Part shown: in pieces, positions 28,394-43,209 of the stretch
How positions within the stretch are numbered: position 1 is the stretch's first letter
Layout of the letters: each line of letters starts with the position of its first letter
Virus record (IMG/VR): IMGVR_UViG_3300045742_000120
Coordinates: 1 to 51,999 of that record
Direction: 5' to 3' (one strand)
From: a virus
DNA length: 51,999 nucleotides
Notes under the pieces: generated by a model
What the model saw: the letters and a program-made list of their open reading frames with translations, nothing else
Databases searched by the model: none
What the model was told of the DNA's origin: nothing
Translations under genes and position numbers: made by a program

Positions 28394-29083
28394 ATGATAA
28401 CAGAAATGACAATAGCAACAGCCTTTGAGTTGTATGGTTTACCTAGCTGGAATGCACTTTCTAAGAAGGTGAAATACGCTAAGACCACCGGAAAGCTTGA
28501 CCAAAGCGTACCACACTATAAGGATAGCCCATTTACGGAAGCTACTGCTGAGGCACTAGGTTTGTCGCTTGTCGTTGGCAATACGCCAAAGCCAGAAATG
28601 GAGCCAAAGCCATCACCGGAGCCAAAGCCAAGGCCAGTGCCAAAGCCAAAGCCAGTGCCAAAGCCAAAGCCAAATTCGCACCGGTGGCCAGTGCCAAAGC
28701 CAAAGCCAGTGCCAGCGCCGCCGACTGACCTGCAGGTTAAGTTGAGTGCGAACTGGCTTGTCGTTTGGGTTGTCTTTAGCCTTATCGTTTTGGATGGTGT
28801 TGCATTTGCTGTGATCGCCGACCGTTCACTTGCCGACGAGTTTGCCGCTGCACAGATTACCTTCTTTTACTTAGGTATCATGTCCGGTGTCGGAGCTGTG
28901 GTAATGTACTGCAGGATTGACCGGTTTGATACTGCTGAGGTGGCTAAATACATCTATGGAGCTTTGCAGTTTATCGTTTTCGAGGCTGCACTAGGTTTAG
29001 ATTTATTTGTTTGGGAAACCTGTATGACCTTTATGATTGTGGCTGTTGAAATGGGTGTGATGAGGTCAATACGTAAACCTTGA
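28394..29083 (+). CDS. Pro/Lys-repeat membrane protein
   Basis: A 229-residue protein with three parts: a small N-terminal domain (1-62), a PKPKPV-type repeat linker (about 65-115), and three hydrophobic segments (about 120-142, 152-172, 185-222). The linker resembles the rigid spacer of TonB-like or envelope-spanning proteins. The first domain would be on one side of the membrane and could reach across the periplasm. No family recognised; an envelope-spanning role is inference. Confidence 0.5.
28585..28715 (+). repeat. Short coding repeats (CCAAAGCCAAAGCCAGTG type)
   Basis: Repeats of GCCAAAG / GCCAGTG units encoding Pro-Lys-Pro. The longest repeated unit, CCAGTGCCAAAGCCAAAG, recurs exactly twice within 70 bases. 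Such arrays change length readily by slippage, so linker length may vary between relatives. Confidence 0.75.
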
Positions 29084-36871: not shown

Positions 36872-36880
36872 ACAACAGGT

Positions 36881-36909
36881 GCCTGCCTGGCTACCGGGCA
36901 GGCACCACC
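36881..36909 (+). promoter_or_regulatory. Strong intergenic hairpin, GGTGCC family
   Basis: GGTGCCTGCCTGG pairs with CCGGGCAGGCACC (13 pairs, one G-U) around a three-base loop, right after the stop of the gp3-like gene (TAAACAACAGGTGCC). No T-run follows; the next gene has an A-rich leader. Likely an mRNA processing or stability element. Confidence 0.6.
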
Positions 36910-36923
36910 AAAACAAACAAACG

Positions 36924-38072
36924 ATGAAAGAAGCATTTGAAGCGCGAAAGCTAGACGGTGAAATAAACATAAAGCTAAGCGCAGGCAGGCGATGGTCTGC
37001 TGATAAAGCAACAGTCTGCAGCCAGATTATTACAATTGTTGAAAGATATGCTGCATTGGGTTACCGGCTTACTTTGAGGCAGCTTTATTATCAATTGGTA
37101 GCTGCTGACTATATACCGAACCATGATAAAGTATACAGCAAGCTAAGCAGCATTTTAGACGACCTCCGGTATTCCGGGAAAGTAGATTGGGCAGCAATTG
37201 AAGACCGTGGCCGGGTACCTTATTTGCCTTATTGGGTACATAGTATTAAAGATGCGCTCGATGATACTGCCAGCCATTACCGGCTCAACAGGCAGCAGGG
37301 GCAGGACACTGTTATTGAGGTGTGGACTGAGAAGGATGCTATAAGTGGCATTTTAAAGCGCATTACCACCAAGTTTCATGTTAATTTGGTTGTGAACAAA
37401 GGCTACTCTAGTTCCAGTGCTATGCACAAGGCTTACCAGCGTTTTGCAGGCTACATAAATGAAGGTAAAAAAGTTATTGTTTTATACTTTGGTGACCATG
37501 ACCCTTCTGGCCTGGATATGGTGCGGGATATTTACAGCAGGATTATGTTTTTCTTAGCAGCCGGTGACCTTTTAGATACTGATGACGGAACCTTAATTGG
37601 GGGTAAGATTATTGAGTGGTGGCTAGATAATGACTTGCAAGCTATGCCCGATGAGTGGCTGGCTGCTGCTGAGTATGTTATTGCATATAACAACGGTGAA
37701 AAATCTTCCTACACTAAGTTTGCTAAGTGTATGCTAGAATATAACAGGCTAAAAAACCAGCAGTTTATAATAGAAAATAACCTTTTTGTGGTGCAGCCTA
37801 TTGGCTTGACTATGGAGCAGATAGAGGATTTTAACCCACCACCAAACCCGGCAAAGCTTACTGACCCCCGTGCTAAATGGTATGTTGAACAATTTGGTGA
37901 TATATCCTGGGAGGTTGATGCTATTGAACCCACAGCGATGGAAAAGATTGTGGAGGATGCTATATTGGAAATAATAGACGAACAGCAGTACCAGGGTGTT
38001 TTAAGCAGGGAAAAGAGGGAGCGTAATTTCATCCTTAATGTTGCCAAAAAATATGATAATGAGGAGGAGTAA
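36924..38072 (+). CDS. TOPRIM protein related to Spo11/TopoVI-A
   Basis: A 382-residue protein; start ATG 36924 follows the hairpin and an A-rich leader. N-terminal wHTH-like part with LTLRQLYYQLVAADYI (49-64) and KLSSILDDLRYSGKVDWAAI (73-92); then the TOPRIM core: VIEVWTEKDA (130-139) with Glu132 or Glu136, and VLYFGDHDPSGLDM (186-199) with Asp191 and Asp193. In TopoVI-A and Spo11 such residues bind metal for strand cleavage by a Tyr in the wHTH (Tyr55 or Tyr56 are candidates). It may nick DNA for replication or recombination. No TopoVI-B partner is seen. Confidence 0.7.
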   Translation: MKEAFEARKLDGEINIKLSAGRRWSADKATVCSQIITIVERYAALGYRLTLRQLYYQLVAADYIPNHDKVYSKLSSILDDLRYSGKVDWAAIEDRGRVPYLPYWVHSIKDALDDTASHYRLNRQQGQDTVIEVWTEKDAISGILKRITTKFHVNLVVNKGYSSSSAMHKAYQRFAGYINEGKKVIVLYFGDHDPSGLDMVRDIYSRIMFFLAAGDLLDTDDGTLIGGKIIEWWLDNDLQAMPDEWLAAAEYVIAYNNGEKSSYTKFAKCMLEYNRLKNQQFIIENNLFVVQPIGLTMEQIEDFNPPPNPAKLTDPRAKWYVEQFGDISWEVDAIEPTAMEKIVEDAILEIIDEQQYQGVLSREKRERNFILNVAKKYDNEEE

Positions 38073-38369: not shown

Positions 38370-39200
38370 ATGGCAGAGAATACGAAAATAGAATGGACAG
38401 ATCATACGGTGAACTTGTGGTGGGGCTGCACTAAGGTAAATGCAGGTTGTGATAACTGTTATGCTGAACACTTAAGTGACACCCGGTATAAAAATGACCT
38501 GTGGGGCGAAGGGGTGCCCCGTAAAGCGATTAAAAGCGCACTGCCTACCCTTAGTAAGCTGCAAGCTAAAGCAGCGGACAGGGGTGTGGTAGAAACGGTT
38601 TTTATGAGTTCCATGTGTGATATCTTTGAAAAGTCAAAGCCACTGATAGACCATAAAGGGGTGAAGCTTGGTTTAACCACCGGCGACCTGAGGAACGAAT
38701 TGTTTTTTAACATTGGTGAAGGCTGCTACCCTAATTTAATATTCTTATTCCTTACCAAAAGGCCGAGCAATATTAATAAGATGGTTCCTGCAGTATGGTT
38801 ATTTAACCCCCCGGACAATGTGGTATTTGGTGCCTCAGTAGCAAACCAGCAGGCTGCAAATGATGTAGCCCGGCACTTTAAAGGGGTTACCGGTAAAAAG
38901 TTTTTAAGCGTGGAGCCGATGCTTGGAAAAATAGGCTTAAGCCCTTTTGTTGATGTGGCAATGGATTACAATAAAGCAATTACTAAAATGCTGGTCGATT
39001 GGGTTATTGTTGGCGGTGAAAGTGGCGACAACAAAAGGCCGTTCGACCCTAATTGGGCACGGATTATAAAAGGCTTTTGCAGTGTTACAAAGACCCCGTT
39101 TTTTATGAAGCAGTGGGATAAGGTGCAGCCAATACCTGATGATTTAATGATAAGGGAGTTTCCGGAATACCTTATTGATGCAAAGCCACCAAGTTTATGA
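38370..39200 (+). CDS. DUF5131 (phage Gp37/Gp68) family protein
   Basis: A 276-residue protein with the family's N-terminal signature: WTDHTVNLWWGCTKVNAGCD followed by NCYAE, giving Cys20, Cys27 and Cys30 (C-x6-C-x2-C), likely an Fe-S or radical-SAM-like site. Later parts fit too: LFLTKRPSNI (about 125), GASVANQ (about 150), SVEPMLG (about 176) and VIVGGESG (about 211). Widespread in phages; the reaction is not established. Confidence 0.85.
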   Translation: MAENTKIEWTDHTVNLWWGCTKVNAGCDNCYAEHLSDTRYKNDLWGEGVPRKAIKSALPTLSKLQAKAADRGVVETVFMSSMCDIFEKSKPLIDHKGVKLGLTTGDLRNELFFNIGEGCYPNLIFLFLTKRPSNINKMVPAVWLFNPPDNVVFGASVANQQAANDVARHFKGVTGKKFLSVEPMLGKIGLSPFVDVAMDYNKAITKMLVDWVIVGGESGDNKRPFDPNWARIIKGFCSVTKTPFFMKQWDKVQPIPDDLMIREFPEYLIDAKPPSL

Positions 39201-40797: not shown

Positions 40798-41733
40798 ATG
40801 AGTAAGAAGCAGAACACGATTATTAAAGTAGCCAGGAAGCAAAAGGATTATTCTATACAGGATAACCACGTTTTCCGGAACACCGGCTTAAGCTGGAAGG
40901 CCAAAGGGCTGCAGGGCTACGCTATGCAGCTCCCTGAGGATTGGGAGCTTAACCTGGCAGACCTGGAAAACAGGGCTACCGATGGCCGTGACAGTGTGAG
41001 CAGTGGCGTGGGGGAGCTTGTTAGGGCTGGCTACTGGTATAAGGAGCAGCTAAGGGAGCAGGGCAAGATGGCCGGGGTGAGGTATTGGGTATTTGAGCGA
41101 CCAGAATACAACACCTTTTTAATAGAGGCCACCACACCAAAAGCAGAAGAAGAACCGGCACCCACCGTAAACGGGTTTTCCGTAAACGGTAAAACCGTAA
41201 ACGGAGAAACCGTAAACGGGAAACCCGTAACTACTAAAGTATTAACTCCTACTAATACATTAAAGGGTAGTAATAATTTAGCTGCTGTTAAAATTGAACC
41301 ACAAATTGACATACCTGCGGACGTTGATTTTTTAGACCACGGGCGCAAGTATTTGAAAAATAAGCTAGGTGATAAATACGGTAACCTTAAAGGGCCAGAA
41401 TATTGGCTTAAGTGGGAGCTTAGTGAATTTCACAGCTATTGGGAGGACTTTGGTTATAAGCACCCCAAAGGCAAAAAGAAAGGGGAGGTAATATCCTTTA
41501 TGCGTTCATTCTCCACCTGGCTGAGCAATTGGGTGACCAGCAACAAAGTGAGGCAGTTCTGCCCCACCGACCCAAAGCACCCCAATAATGACCCACACGC
41601 GCAGCAGTACGGTGTCACCCCCGGTGGTAATGATGCTAGAGGGCAGGTGTATGACAGGCCGGTAAACAAGGCACTGACAAAGCCAGCCAGCGCACAGGGC
41701 AATAATTTAGCTGACAAGTTTAAAGCCCACTAA
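40798..41733 (+). CDS. Replication initiator protein with internal origin
   Basis: A 311-residue protein with a winged-helix-like N-terminus: HVFRNTGLSWKAKGLQGYAM (24-43) and LNLADLENRATDGRDSVSSG (51-70). Then a five-residue repeat (TVNG[K/E] type, about 122-144) that is encoded by DNA iterons, a spacer, and a C-terminal domain (about 175-250, DHGRKYLKNKLGDKYGNLKG ...) likely to contact the helicase. It lies just before dnaB, like lambda O before P and other phage initiators. Leader: AAACAAACAAACAATG. Confidence 0.7.
   Translation: MSKKQNTIIKVARKQKDYSIQDNHVFRNTGLSWKAKGLQGYAMQLPEDWELNLADLENRATDGRDSVSSGVGELVRAGYWYKEQLREQGKMAGVRYWVFERPEYNTFLIEATTPKAEEEPAPTVNGFSVNGKTVNGETVNGKPVTTKVLTPTNTLKGSNNLAAVKIEPQIDIPADVDFLDHGRKYLKNKLGDKYGNLKGPEYWLKWELSEFHSYWEDFGYKHPKGKKKGEVISFMRSFSTWLSNWVTSNKVRQFCPTDPKHPNNDPHAQQYGVTPGGNDARGQVYDRPVNKALTKPASAQGNNLADKFKAH
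41165..41290 (+). other. Putative replication origin: 15-bp iterons and AT-rich flank
   Basis: CCGTAAACGG occurs at 41165, 41180, 41195 and 41210, and as CCGTAA at 41225: exactly 15 bases apart. Each core has inverted ends (CCGT..ACGG). An AT-rich stretch follows (41231-41290, with TACTAAAGTATTAA and TAGTAATAATTTA). Iterons plus AT-rich DNA within the initiator gene is the layout of lambda-type origins. Confidence 0.7.
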
Positions 41734-41736
41734 GCG

Positions 41737-43209
41737 ATGAGTAAAATTAAAGAAAGCAAACAGCGGGTGCGCGAAGCTTGGCAGCAGGTTAATGCTGAGC
41801 GTGAAGCTGCTGAAATAATTACATACGGCAAAGTCCAACCCCATGTTATACCTTTTGAGGAGGCTGTGCTTGGTGCCTGTTTACTGGAAAAAGATGCTGT
41901 GCAAAAGGTGTCCACCATCTTAAAGGAGGGGGATTTTTATAAGCAGGCTAATAACCTTATTTATAGGGCAATGATTGACCTTTACGAAAGGCGACAGCCT
42001 GTTGACCTGCTGACTGTGATGGCAGAGCTAAAAGGAACCGGGGAGCTTGATAACGTTGGTGGGGCTGTTTACCTGGCTGAGCTTAGCAACAAAGTGGCCA
42101 GTGCAGCAAATATAGAATACCATGCTGTAGTGCTACAGCAAAAGTCTTACCTCCGGCACGTCATTTCTAGCTGCACCAAGATGATGGCAATGGGTTATGA
42201 TGAAACCGTGGATATCAATGACCTTTCGGAATTTGTGGAGGGTAAGCTTTTTGAGTTAACGCAAAAGGTGACACCGGGGGTAATACAGCCCTTTAAAAAG
42301 CACCTTAGTAACAGGATGGATGAGCATATTGCTAACAGCAAACTAGATAGCTCGGCTGTGCTTGGTGTGCCTACTGACTTTGCTGACCTTGATGCTATTA
42401 CCGGGGGGCTGCAAAAAGGCGACCTTATCTGTATTGCTGCCAGGCCATCAATGGGGAAGACTGCTTTTGTTAAAAGCTTAATTTATAAGCAGGCCGTAAA
42501 GCTTAATAAAAGCGTAGCAGTTTTTTCGATGGAGGAAACGGCTGGGATGTTCTGTGATGGCCTTATTGCAATCGATGCCTGCCTTAATGGTAGGACGGTC
42601 AAGCAGGCTAACAAATGGACGGACAACAGCCAGCAAAGAATATTTGACACTGTTGACCGGATTGGTAGTGCTAAGATATTTTTAGATGATACTAATAACA
42701 TATCAATTAGCTACCTGGCCAGCAAGCTGAGGGAGCTTAAGGCCAAATATGATATTGATATTGCTTATATTGACTACCTGCAAATAATGGATATCGGTGA
42801 GGGTTTTAACCGGGATGTGGAAATAGGTAAGGTGACTAAGCGGCTGAAAGGGCTGGCTAAAGAATTGGACATACCTATTGTGTTCCTAAGCCAGCTAAGC
42901 CGGGCAGTGCTAAAGACAGCCGATAAGCGACCAGACCTTAGCCACCTGCGAGAATCCGGTAACATAGAGCAGGACTGTGACTTTATCATGTTCCTGCACA
43001 GGCCGTGGTATTATGGCATGAAAGAAAATGCAGACGGCGACAGCACTGAAAAGCTCGGTGAGGGAATAATTGCTAAGCACCGACATGGGGAGTTAGCCAC
43101 AGTAGATTTTAAGTTTATCAACTGGATGCCTGCCTATTATGATGTCGATGAGGAGATTTGTGACCAGCCACCGGTACAAGGTGCAGACGGGGAAGATTTA
43201 CCATTTTAA
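41737..43209 (+). CDS. dnaB: Replicative DNA helicase, DnaB family
   Basis: A 490-residue protein with an N-terminal DnaB domain (about 35-140, EEAVLGACLLEKDAVQKV), a linker, and the RecA-like core: Walker A ARPSMGKT (235-242, Lys241), motif FSMEET (263-268), Walker B DIAYIDYLQI (341-350, Asp346), and SQLSR (385-389). It unwinds DNA at the fork as a hexamer. Length is usual for the family. Located three bases after the initiator, which probably loads it at the iterons. Confidence 0.95.
   Translation: MSKIKESKQRVREAWQQVNAEREAAEIITYGKVQPHVIPFEEAVLGACLLEKDAVQKVSTILKEGDFYKQANNLIYRAMIDLYERRQPVDLLTVMAELKGTGELDNVGGAVYLAELSNKVASAANIEYHAVVLQQKSYLRHVISSCTKMMAMGYDETVDINDLSEFVEGKLFELTQKVTPGVIQPFKKHLSNRMDEHIANSKLDSSAVLGVPTDFADLDAITGGLQKGDLICIAARPSMGKTAFVKSLIYKQAVKLNKSVAVFSMEETAGMFCDGLIAIDACLNGRTVKQANKWTDNSQQRIFDTVDRIGSAKIFLDDTNNISISYLASKLRELKAKYDIDIAYIDYLQIMDIGEGFNRDVEIGKVTKRLKGLAKELDIPIVFLSQLSRAVLKTADKRPDLSHLRESGNIEQDCDFIMFLHRPWYYGMKENADGDSTEKLGEGIIAKHRHGELATVDFKFINWMPAYYDVDEEICDQPPVQGADGEDLPF

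Follow-up and report, generated by a model that had tools for sequence, protein, structure and literature searches.

The 51,999-bp window (the whole stretch of DNA analysed in the current study) carries an iteron array that most probably (roughly 0.87) represents a phage theta replication origin, which lies within the linker-coding part of the phage's initiator gene and is bound by the N-terminal domain of the encoded protein. The relevant features, all on the + strand, are as follows.

40798..41733 (+): replication initiator gene, 311 aa, which holds the putative origin (ORF; PHROG 4707, phrog_428; tblastn)
40819..41112 (+): N-terminal winged-helix domain (HTH_36-like), proposed to bind the iterons (alignment A1; AF2; VIA-align)
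41165..41174 (+): iteron 1, exact copy of CCGTAAACGG
41180..41189 (+): iteron 2, exact copy of CCGTAAACGG
41195..41204 (+): iteron 3, exact copy of CCGTAAACGG
41210..41219 (+): iteron 4, exact copy of CCGTAAACGG
41225..41229 (+): CCGTA, a terminal half-site that keeps the 15-bp register and abuts ACTACTAA (consensus CCGACACTACTAA in relatives)
41230..41237 (+): ACTACTAA, a DnaA-trio-like element 20 bp from the start of iteron 4 (same distance in relatives)
41238..41290 (+): probable unwinding region, an AT-rich stretch that includes TACTAATA, TAGTAATAAT and sequences like them (sequence; A+T in relatives)
41325..41730 (+): C-terminal part of the initiator, candidate helicase-contact domain (without Pfam/NCBIfam family)
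41737..43209 (+): dnaB replicative helicase (Pfam DnaB_C, E 8e-76; DnaB, E 1e-31)

The 10-mer CCGTAAACGG is a dyad, CCGT-NN-ACGG, and occurs as four exact + strand copies in 15-bp steps (starts 41165, 41180, 41195 and 41210), with no further exact copy anywhere in the 51,999-bp window. Allowing one mismatch or fewer, the window holds 8 matches, compared with 2.0 +/- 1.35 in shuffled sequences, none of which reaches 8. With the peptide held fixed and local codon usage taken into account, the probability of four identical 10-mers is about 2e-5. All four copies and the half copy fall within the 311-aa ORF at 40798–41733, which precedes dnaB, and the array lies about 370 bp into this gene. The initial annotation had described four exact copies spaced at 15 bp, and a half copy, in the gene before dnaB, and all of this was confirmed. 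It had also described AT-rich DNA after the array; this is true but the enrichment is modest (A+T of 70% at 41226–41285, against a window mean of 55%; 4.6% of 60-bp windows equal that value). GC skew, which had been suggested as a check, is flat in the window and never changes sign, so it is uninformative on origin position and points neither to nor away from the array.

The initiator protein matches PHROG 4707 ('replication initiation protein') at E 8e-18 and phrog_428 at E 2e-10, and tblastn retrieves phage replication initiators. The HMM of alignment A1, of which the window sequence is itself a part, matches at 40822–41112. In the AF2 model, which is dependable for the N-terminal domain only, residues 21–100 form a winged helix predicted with high confidence (pLDDT ~90), the recognition helix of which opens with G-R-D (Arg64 codon, 40987–40989). 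The top rows of the VIA-align comparison include replication proteins, namely the Geobacillus DnaB N-terminal domain (Z 8.4) and RctB domain 1 (Z 8.1), while the RepA/Rep N-terminal domains 4pql, 4pt7 and 5kbj align over about 83 residues at 3.7–3.8 A (Z 7.3, 6.9 and 6.2, respectively). All of these Z scores are middling, and Foldseek E-values for this domain are weak. Of the 30 sequences in A1, 29 are matched by Pfam HTH_36 at E<=1; the window protein scores 13 bits, under the cut-off of 25, and a Pfam scan of the window initiator returned zero families at E<=0.1. The linker bearing the repeats has very low prediction confidence, as a disordered linker would give. Beyond it, the C-terminal part is without a family match in Pfam or NCBIfam, helicase-loading families included, and has predicted helices at residues 178–252 (low confidence). 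The dnaB gene starts at 41737, 3 bp past the end of the initiator ORF. Just upstream of the replication genes are a DUF5131 protein (38370–39200) and a protein whose PHROG match bears the name DNA topoisomerase (36879–38072). Elsewhere in the window (28585–28719) there is a long imperfect GCCAAA/GCCAGT tandem repeat with periods of 6, 18 and 24 bp.

Searches of IMG/VR with the whole window initiator, and with the window DnaB, recovered no close relatives. The 30-sequence alignment A1 was too diverse for a pattern search, so two tighter alignments were used. To obtain a sample blind to the motif, genes were fetched by similarity in the N-terminal domain alone, and four annotated phage loci were added, giving 146 genes with less than 85% similarity to one another there. 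A row was scored when at least 11 of the 12 CC..GG anchor letters were present over three copies. By this measure a CC-N6-GG row at period 15 is found in 83 of the 146 genes; periods of 11–14 and 17–24 gave none, period 16 gave five and period 25 a single case. At a looser threshold (10 of 12 letters) arrays occur in frames 0, 1 and 2 in 76, 18 and 3 cases, respectively. Roughly one in three of the relatives sampled is without such a row. Since the genes share ancestry, these array counts do not represent independent events.

The cores of the sites vary (CCGTnnACGG, CCACnnGTGG, CCATCGATGG, CCAACGTTGG and others). Dyad positions 3/8 are complementary in 67% (42% expected) and positions 4/7 in 47% (29% expected), and the dyad symmetry is retained through the core changes. 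Where the recognition helix opens with Arg, the sites tend to be CCG..CGG, with G at base 3; other residues go with CCA..TGG sites, which have A there. The link between this Arg and base 3 is strong in raw counts (49/59 vs 3/11), but most of its support is lost on control for ancestry (Wilcoxon p of 0.04–0.06), and it is treated as a lead only.

The row is widely distributed, with hundreds of viral and plasmid relatives retaining the evenly spaced sites. It is present in genome contigs titled Bacteroidales, Bacillus, Paenibacillus, Lysinibacillus and Clostridia, and also in those titled Propionibacterium, Deltaproteobacteria, Thiotrichaceae and Synechococcales. It is carried by plasmids of Brevibacillus, Exiguobacterium and Staphylococcus nepalensis and, in weaker form, by a Fluoribacter plasmid; sites and ACTACTAA also occur in a Caldicellulosiruptor plasmid, though under the three-copy threshold. 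The C-terminal domains attached to the shared N-terminal domain differ: TP901-1 and a Parageobacillus phage have DnaD, phi13 has TIGR02220, and in the window no family is matched. Downstream genes also differ. Among 190 loci with at least 1 kb of downstream sequence, 47 show a DnaC-like loader, 25 DnaB, 3 both and 115 neither as scored by this test. Many Leptospira plasmids (hits such as H58 and H66) encode a relative of the N-terminal domain; the single one examined (L311) is without a 15-bp row in the gene. One database entry, OP712464.1 (H19; 1,988 bp), is named Pseudomonas phage PSV3 but matches the window protein over the same range and at the same identity as many Staphylococcus phage rep genes, and is possibly misnamed or contaminated.

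A second element, ACTACTAA, accompanies the array. It is found in the linker of 69 of the 146 genes, against 1.6 in shuffles, and in two frames. Its distance from the array was counted with the pattern A[CT]TA[CG]TAA in 61 relatives, and in 47 of these the spacing from the start of the final full site to that of the element is exactly 20 bp, in both frames (12/12 frame-1 genes and 35/47 frame-0 genes). Six more frame-0 genes have it at 35 bp, one period further, and in the two frame-2 genes with the element the distance is 37 bp. In the window, ACTACTAA at 41230 is likewise 20 bp past the start of iteron 4. The consensus in relatives can be written as (CC-N6-GG-AAAAT)n CCGACACTACTAA, followed by AT-rich repeats; the half-site is fused to ACTACTAA in this consensus, and thus the half copy of the initial annotation is the first part of the second element. 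Over the first 30 bp past the array, A+T among the relatives averages 78%, compared with about 60% in the flanks.

Within this element, CTACTA (41231–41236) places a tandem 5'-CTA-3' directly beside the initiator sites. The DnaA-trio is 3'-GAT-5', with complement 5'-CTA-3', and adjoins a DnaA box (PMC8235120), while the DnaD recognition element consists of TnnT pairs on the opposite strand (PMC10201434). In an Anoxybacillus oriC (L397), located between dnaA and dnaN, a DnaA box is shortly followed by CCCTACTACTATTACTATTA. Among the Bacillota genome hits for a DnaA box and then CTACTA, the dnaA–dnaN position was confirmed for this one only; the hit in L395 falls within an ORF and was regarded as fortuitous. 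With the same place and the same CTACTA start, ACTACTAA resembles the CTACTA strand of the DnaA-trios in chromosomal oriC, and by analogy it may act like a DnaA-trio. Alternatively, the origin may be a true one in which ACTACTAA is only the start of the AT-rich unwinding region, the likeness to a DnaA-trio being fortuitous. This has not far short of an even chance of being correct, as the frame classes differ past CTACTA (CTAAATA vs CTAATAAT) and strict triplet spacing is not kept; yet the excess of ACTACTAA over shuffled sequences, its fixed 20-bp offset, the Anoxybacillus oriC and the published complement of the trio (PMC8235120) all argue against it. It touches one part of the best explanation only.

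Under the preferred explanation, the N-terminal winged helix would bind a row of 10-bp CC-N6-GG dyads 15 bp apart, the row closing with the half-site, which runs directly into ACTACTAA and then the AT-rich stretch. The assembled initiators would then melt the adjoining ACTACTAA/AT-rich DNA, and the C-terminal part would recruit the DnaB helicase encoded directly downstream. The site itself, its dyad symmetry, the 15-bp period, the 20-bp distance and the frame-independent conservation can be read directly from the sequences of many phages and plasmids. Homology and the literature support both the binding of the sites by the N-terminal domain and their role as an origin. For the window protein in particular, binding, melting and helicase loading are inferred, as is the origin activity of the array.

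A different role for the same protein–DNA interaction is that of an operator, by which the initiator would repress or stall transcription running across its own gene and dnaB, or by which arrays would pair to limit copy number, with the origin located elsewhere. Repressors also work by a winged helix on dyad sites, and the location within the operon fits. In iteron plasmids, the iterons of the initiator often double as operator and origin sites. The sites of the window, however, are about 370 bp inside the gene and not at a promoter, the fixed-distance ACTACTAA and AT-rich stretch are needed by an origin but not by an operator, and the corresponding repeats of homologues have been reported to be the origin. 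An operator with the origin elsewhere is therefore considered improbable.

The relationship between the DNA repeat and the five-residue repeat that it encodes can be resolved by comparing reading frames. A motif-first scan of IMG/VR for three CCGTnnACGG sites at 15-bp spacing recovered 65 contigs. In 61 of these the array is in the same ORF, directly after the same winged-helix domain; of the other four, three begin so near the array that the domain cannot be read, and one (L057) has a diverged domain. Among the motif-scan loci, including the window, 38 read the array as P-x-T-x-x and 28 as x-V-x-G-x, giving peptides such as PSTEN or TVNGK, depending on the frame. Both peptide frames occur at one place in one protein, and therefore the same DNA encodes different peptides. 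Codon choice points the same way, synonymous positions being fixed in each frame as expected from the dyad. When repeats are picked by their peptide alone, P is encoded by CCG in 81% of cases, compared with 35% elsewhere in the same genes (P 2e-15), and T is ACG in 85%, compared with 19% (P 3e-32). In the x-V-x-G-x frame the third base is C in 96% vs 27% (P 2e-12).

Frame changes are even found inside single arrays (8 of 202 loci with strict dyads in more than one frame). Examples are the Brevibacillus laterosporus plasmid L310 (NZ_CP136164.1, 1825–1950), where CCGGATACGG is read in two frames, and Paenibacillus loci in which CCGATGACGG and CCGTCGACGG are each read in two frames; besides L310, a change of frame in mid-array was noted in L156, L160, L161, L089 and L183. 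Variants with a 16-bp spacing also occur (L122, L126, L133 and L151), with ACTACTAA or ACTAGTAA still present after the array. Because of this spacing, successive sites (e.g. in L122 and L151) fall in successive reading frames.

The initial annotation had suggested that the peptide repeat is a by-product of the DNA repeat, and this is borne out: the dyad is conserved across two frames while the peptide changes, even within one array, and the peptide repeat is therefore a by-product. The main refuting condition of the initial annotation, a peptide kept while the DNA site is lost through synonymous changes, was put to the test in relatives; instead they keep the DNA dyad and change the peptide. 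On comparative sequence grounds the repeat is a feature of the DNA rather than of the peptide, the five-residue repeat representing translated iterons in a flexible linker. That selection acts on the peptide (as a flexible or protein-binding linker), the DNA repeat being a relic of recent tandem duplication, is extremely unlikely: although the repeat is in frame and in a region of very low prediction confidence, two frames give different peptides from the same DNA, sometimes in one gene, synonymous positions are fixed, dyad symmetry survives core changes, and the 20-bp distance to ACTACTAA is indifferent to frame. The peptide repeat as a functional unit was accordingly rejected, by the two-frame reading, the codon test and the mid-array frame changes.

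Given the precedents of TP901-1, 80alpha and pPR9 (see below), this kind of origin is already known. For the frame-independent rule and the fixed-distance CTACTAA, no description was found in the open literature; closed journals were outside the search, and a prior description is possible. The observations provide a sequence rule by which the origin and its iteron specificity can be read in many phage and plasmid genomes, namely an HTH_36-like domain, then CC-N6-GG sites at 15-bp intervals, and ACTACTAA 20 bp past the last site. Five-residue repeats in such initiators are explained as a by-product of DNA sites, and DNA function overrides coding, since identical sites are translated in more than one frame, in some cases inside a single gene. 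Through the trio-like element it becomes possible to test whether the single-strand unwinding code of chromosomes is shared by phage origins.

Among well-studied systems, lambda O/ori-lambda and SPP1 G38P/oriL have an initiator that binds repeats within its own gene beside an AT-rich region, and the window shares this arrangement of in-gene repeats and adjoining AT-rich DNA. The lambda-O-type plan proposed in the initial annotation holds in so far as an initiator with in-gene iterons is concerned, as in TP901-1 ORF13 and 80alpha ORF20. It does not extend to the protein family, as the window protein has no match to the lambda-type O family (Pfam, E<=0.1), its PHROG matches being to other replication-initiation families, nor to the neighbouring gene, which is a P-type helicase loader in lambda but the DnaB helicase in the window. 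The proposed origin of the window would work like that of lambda O, but its initiator, with an HTH_36-like N-terminal domain, is not a member of the lambda-O family.

A closer counterpart is Lactococcus phage TP901-1, the rep protein of which (ORF13) matches the A1 profile at E 7e-30 although TP901-1 is absent from that profile. A later paper reports in summary that ORF13 binds direct repeats in its own gene, and that these repeats are the origin (PMC8965321). The ORF13 gene carries 15-bp CCAGATGTGG repeats and then CTACTAAATACTAAT. As in the window, a homologous N-terminal winged helix is followed at the same gene position by CC-N6-GG repeats at 15 bp; the site core differs (CCAGATGTGG vs CCGTAAACGG), and the C-terminal part of ORF13 is a DnaD domain, whereas that of the window protein is without a family match. 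With its winged helix, 15-bp dyad repeats and fixed-distance ACTACTAA, the window protein would thus be an HTH_36-type initiator of the same kind as TP901-1 ORF13. The rep protein of Staphylococcus aureus phi13 is similar, with the same N-terminal domain, CCGTTAACGG/CCAACGTTGG sites at 15 bp and ACTACTAATAAT, in the same frame as the window, but its C-terminal domain is TIGR02220, and its neighbour is a DnaC-like helicase loader where the window has DnaB. For ORF20 of the S. aureus phage 80alpha the likeness is through a published inference and not by sequence: ORF20 did not complement in trans, from which the authors infer an origin embedded in the gene (PMC5499656).

The lactococcal phages r1t (L306, 4210–4300) and Tuc2009 (L307, 4488–4545) have 15-bp A+T-/TAG-rich linker repeats (AGATAAGAATAGATT and AGGATAGGATAGGTA, respectively). 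Neither r1t ORF11 nor the Tuc2009 Rep matches the N-terminal profile, so they are not counted as members, and their repeats are perhaps a parallel solution.

RepA_N plasmids (pSK41 and pTZ2162), together with the hybrid pPR9, have an origin in the middle of rep, as proposed for the window, bound by an N-terminal winged helix of possibly similar fold (middling Z of 6.2–7.3). RepA_N (PF06970) has no match in the window protein at E<=0.1 and is absent among the 25 families listed for A1. Plasmid pPR9 combines an HTH_36 N-terminal domain with a pSK41 C-terminal domain, and replicates (PMC5703833).

Finally, the basal unwinding module of oriC (DnaA box, DnaA-trios and DnaD recognition element) has the same order as the window, double-strand sites and then CTACTA, but where oriC has DnaA boxes the window phage has iterons. 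A tentative view, which falls well short of even odds, is that the origin is a portable, rigid cassette of N 15-bp dyad iterons, a half-site and a DnaA-trio-like CTACTAA at exactly 20 bp, translated in any open frame. Cassette and DNA-binding domain would travel together and become joined to various C-terminal (helicase-contact) domains, in phages as well as plasmids and across several phyla; the DnaA boxes would have been replaced by the phages' own iterons, and an oriC-like single-strand unwinding element would have been kept.
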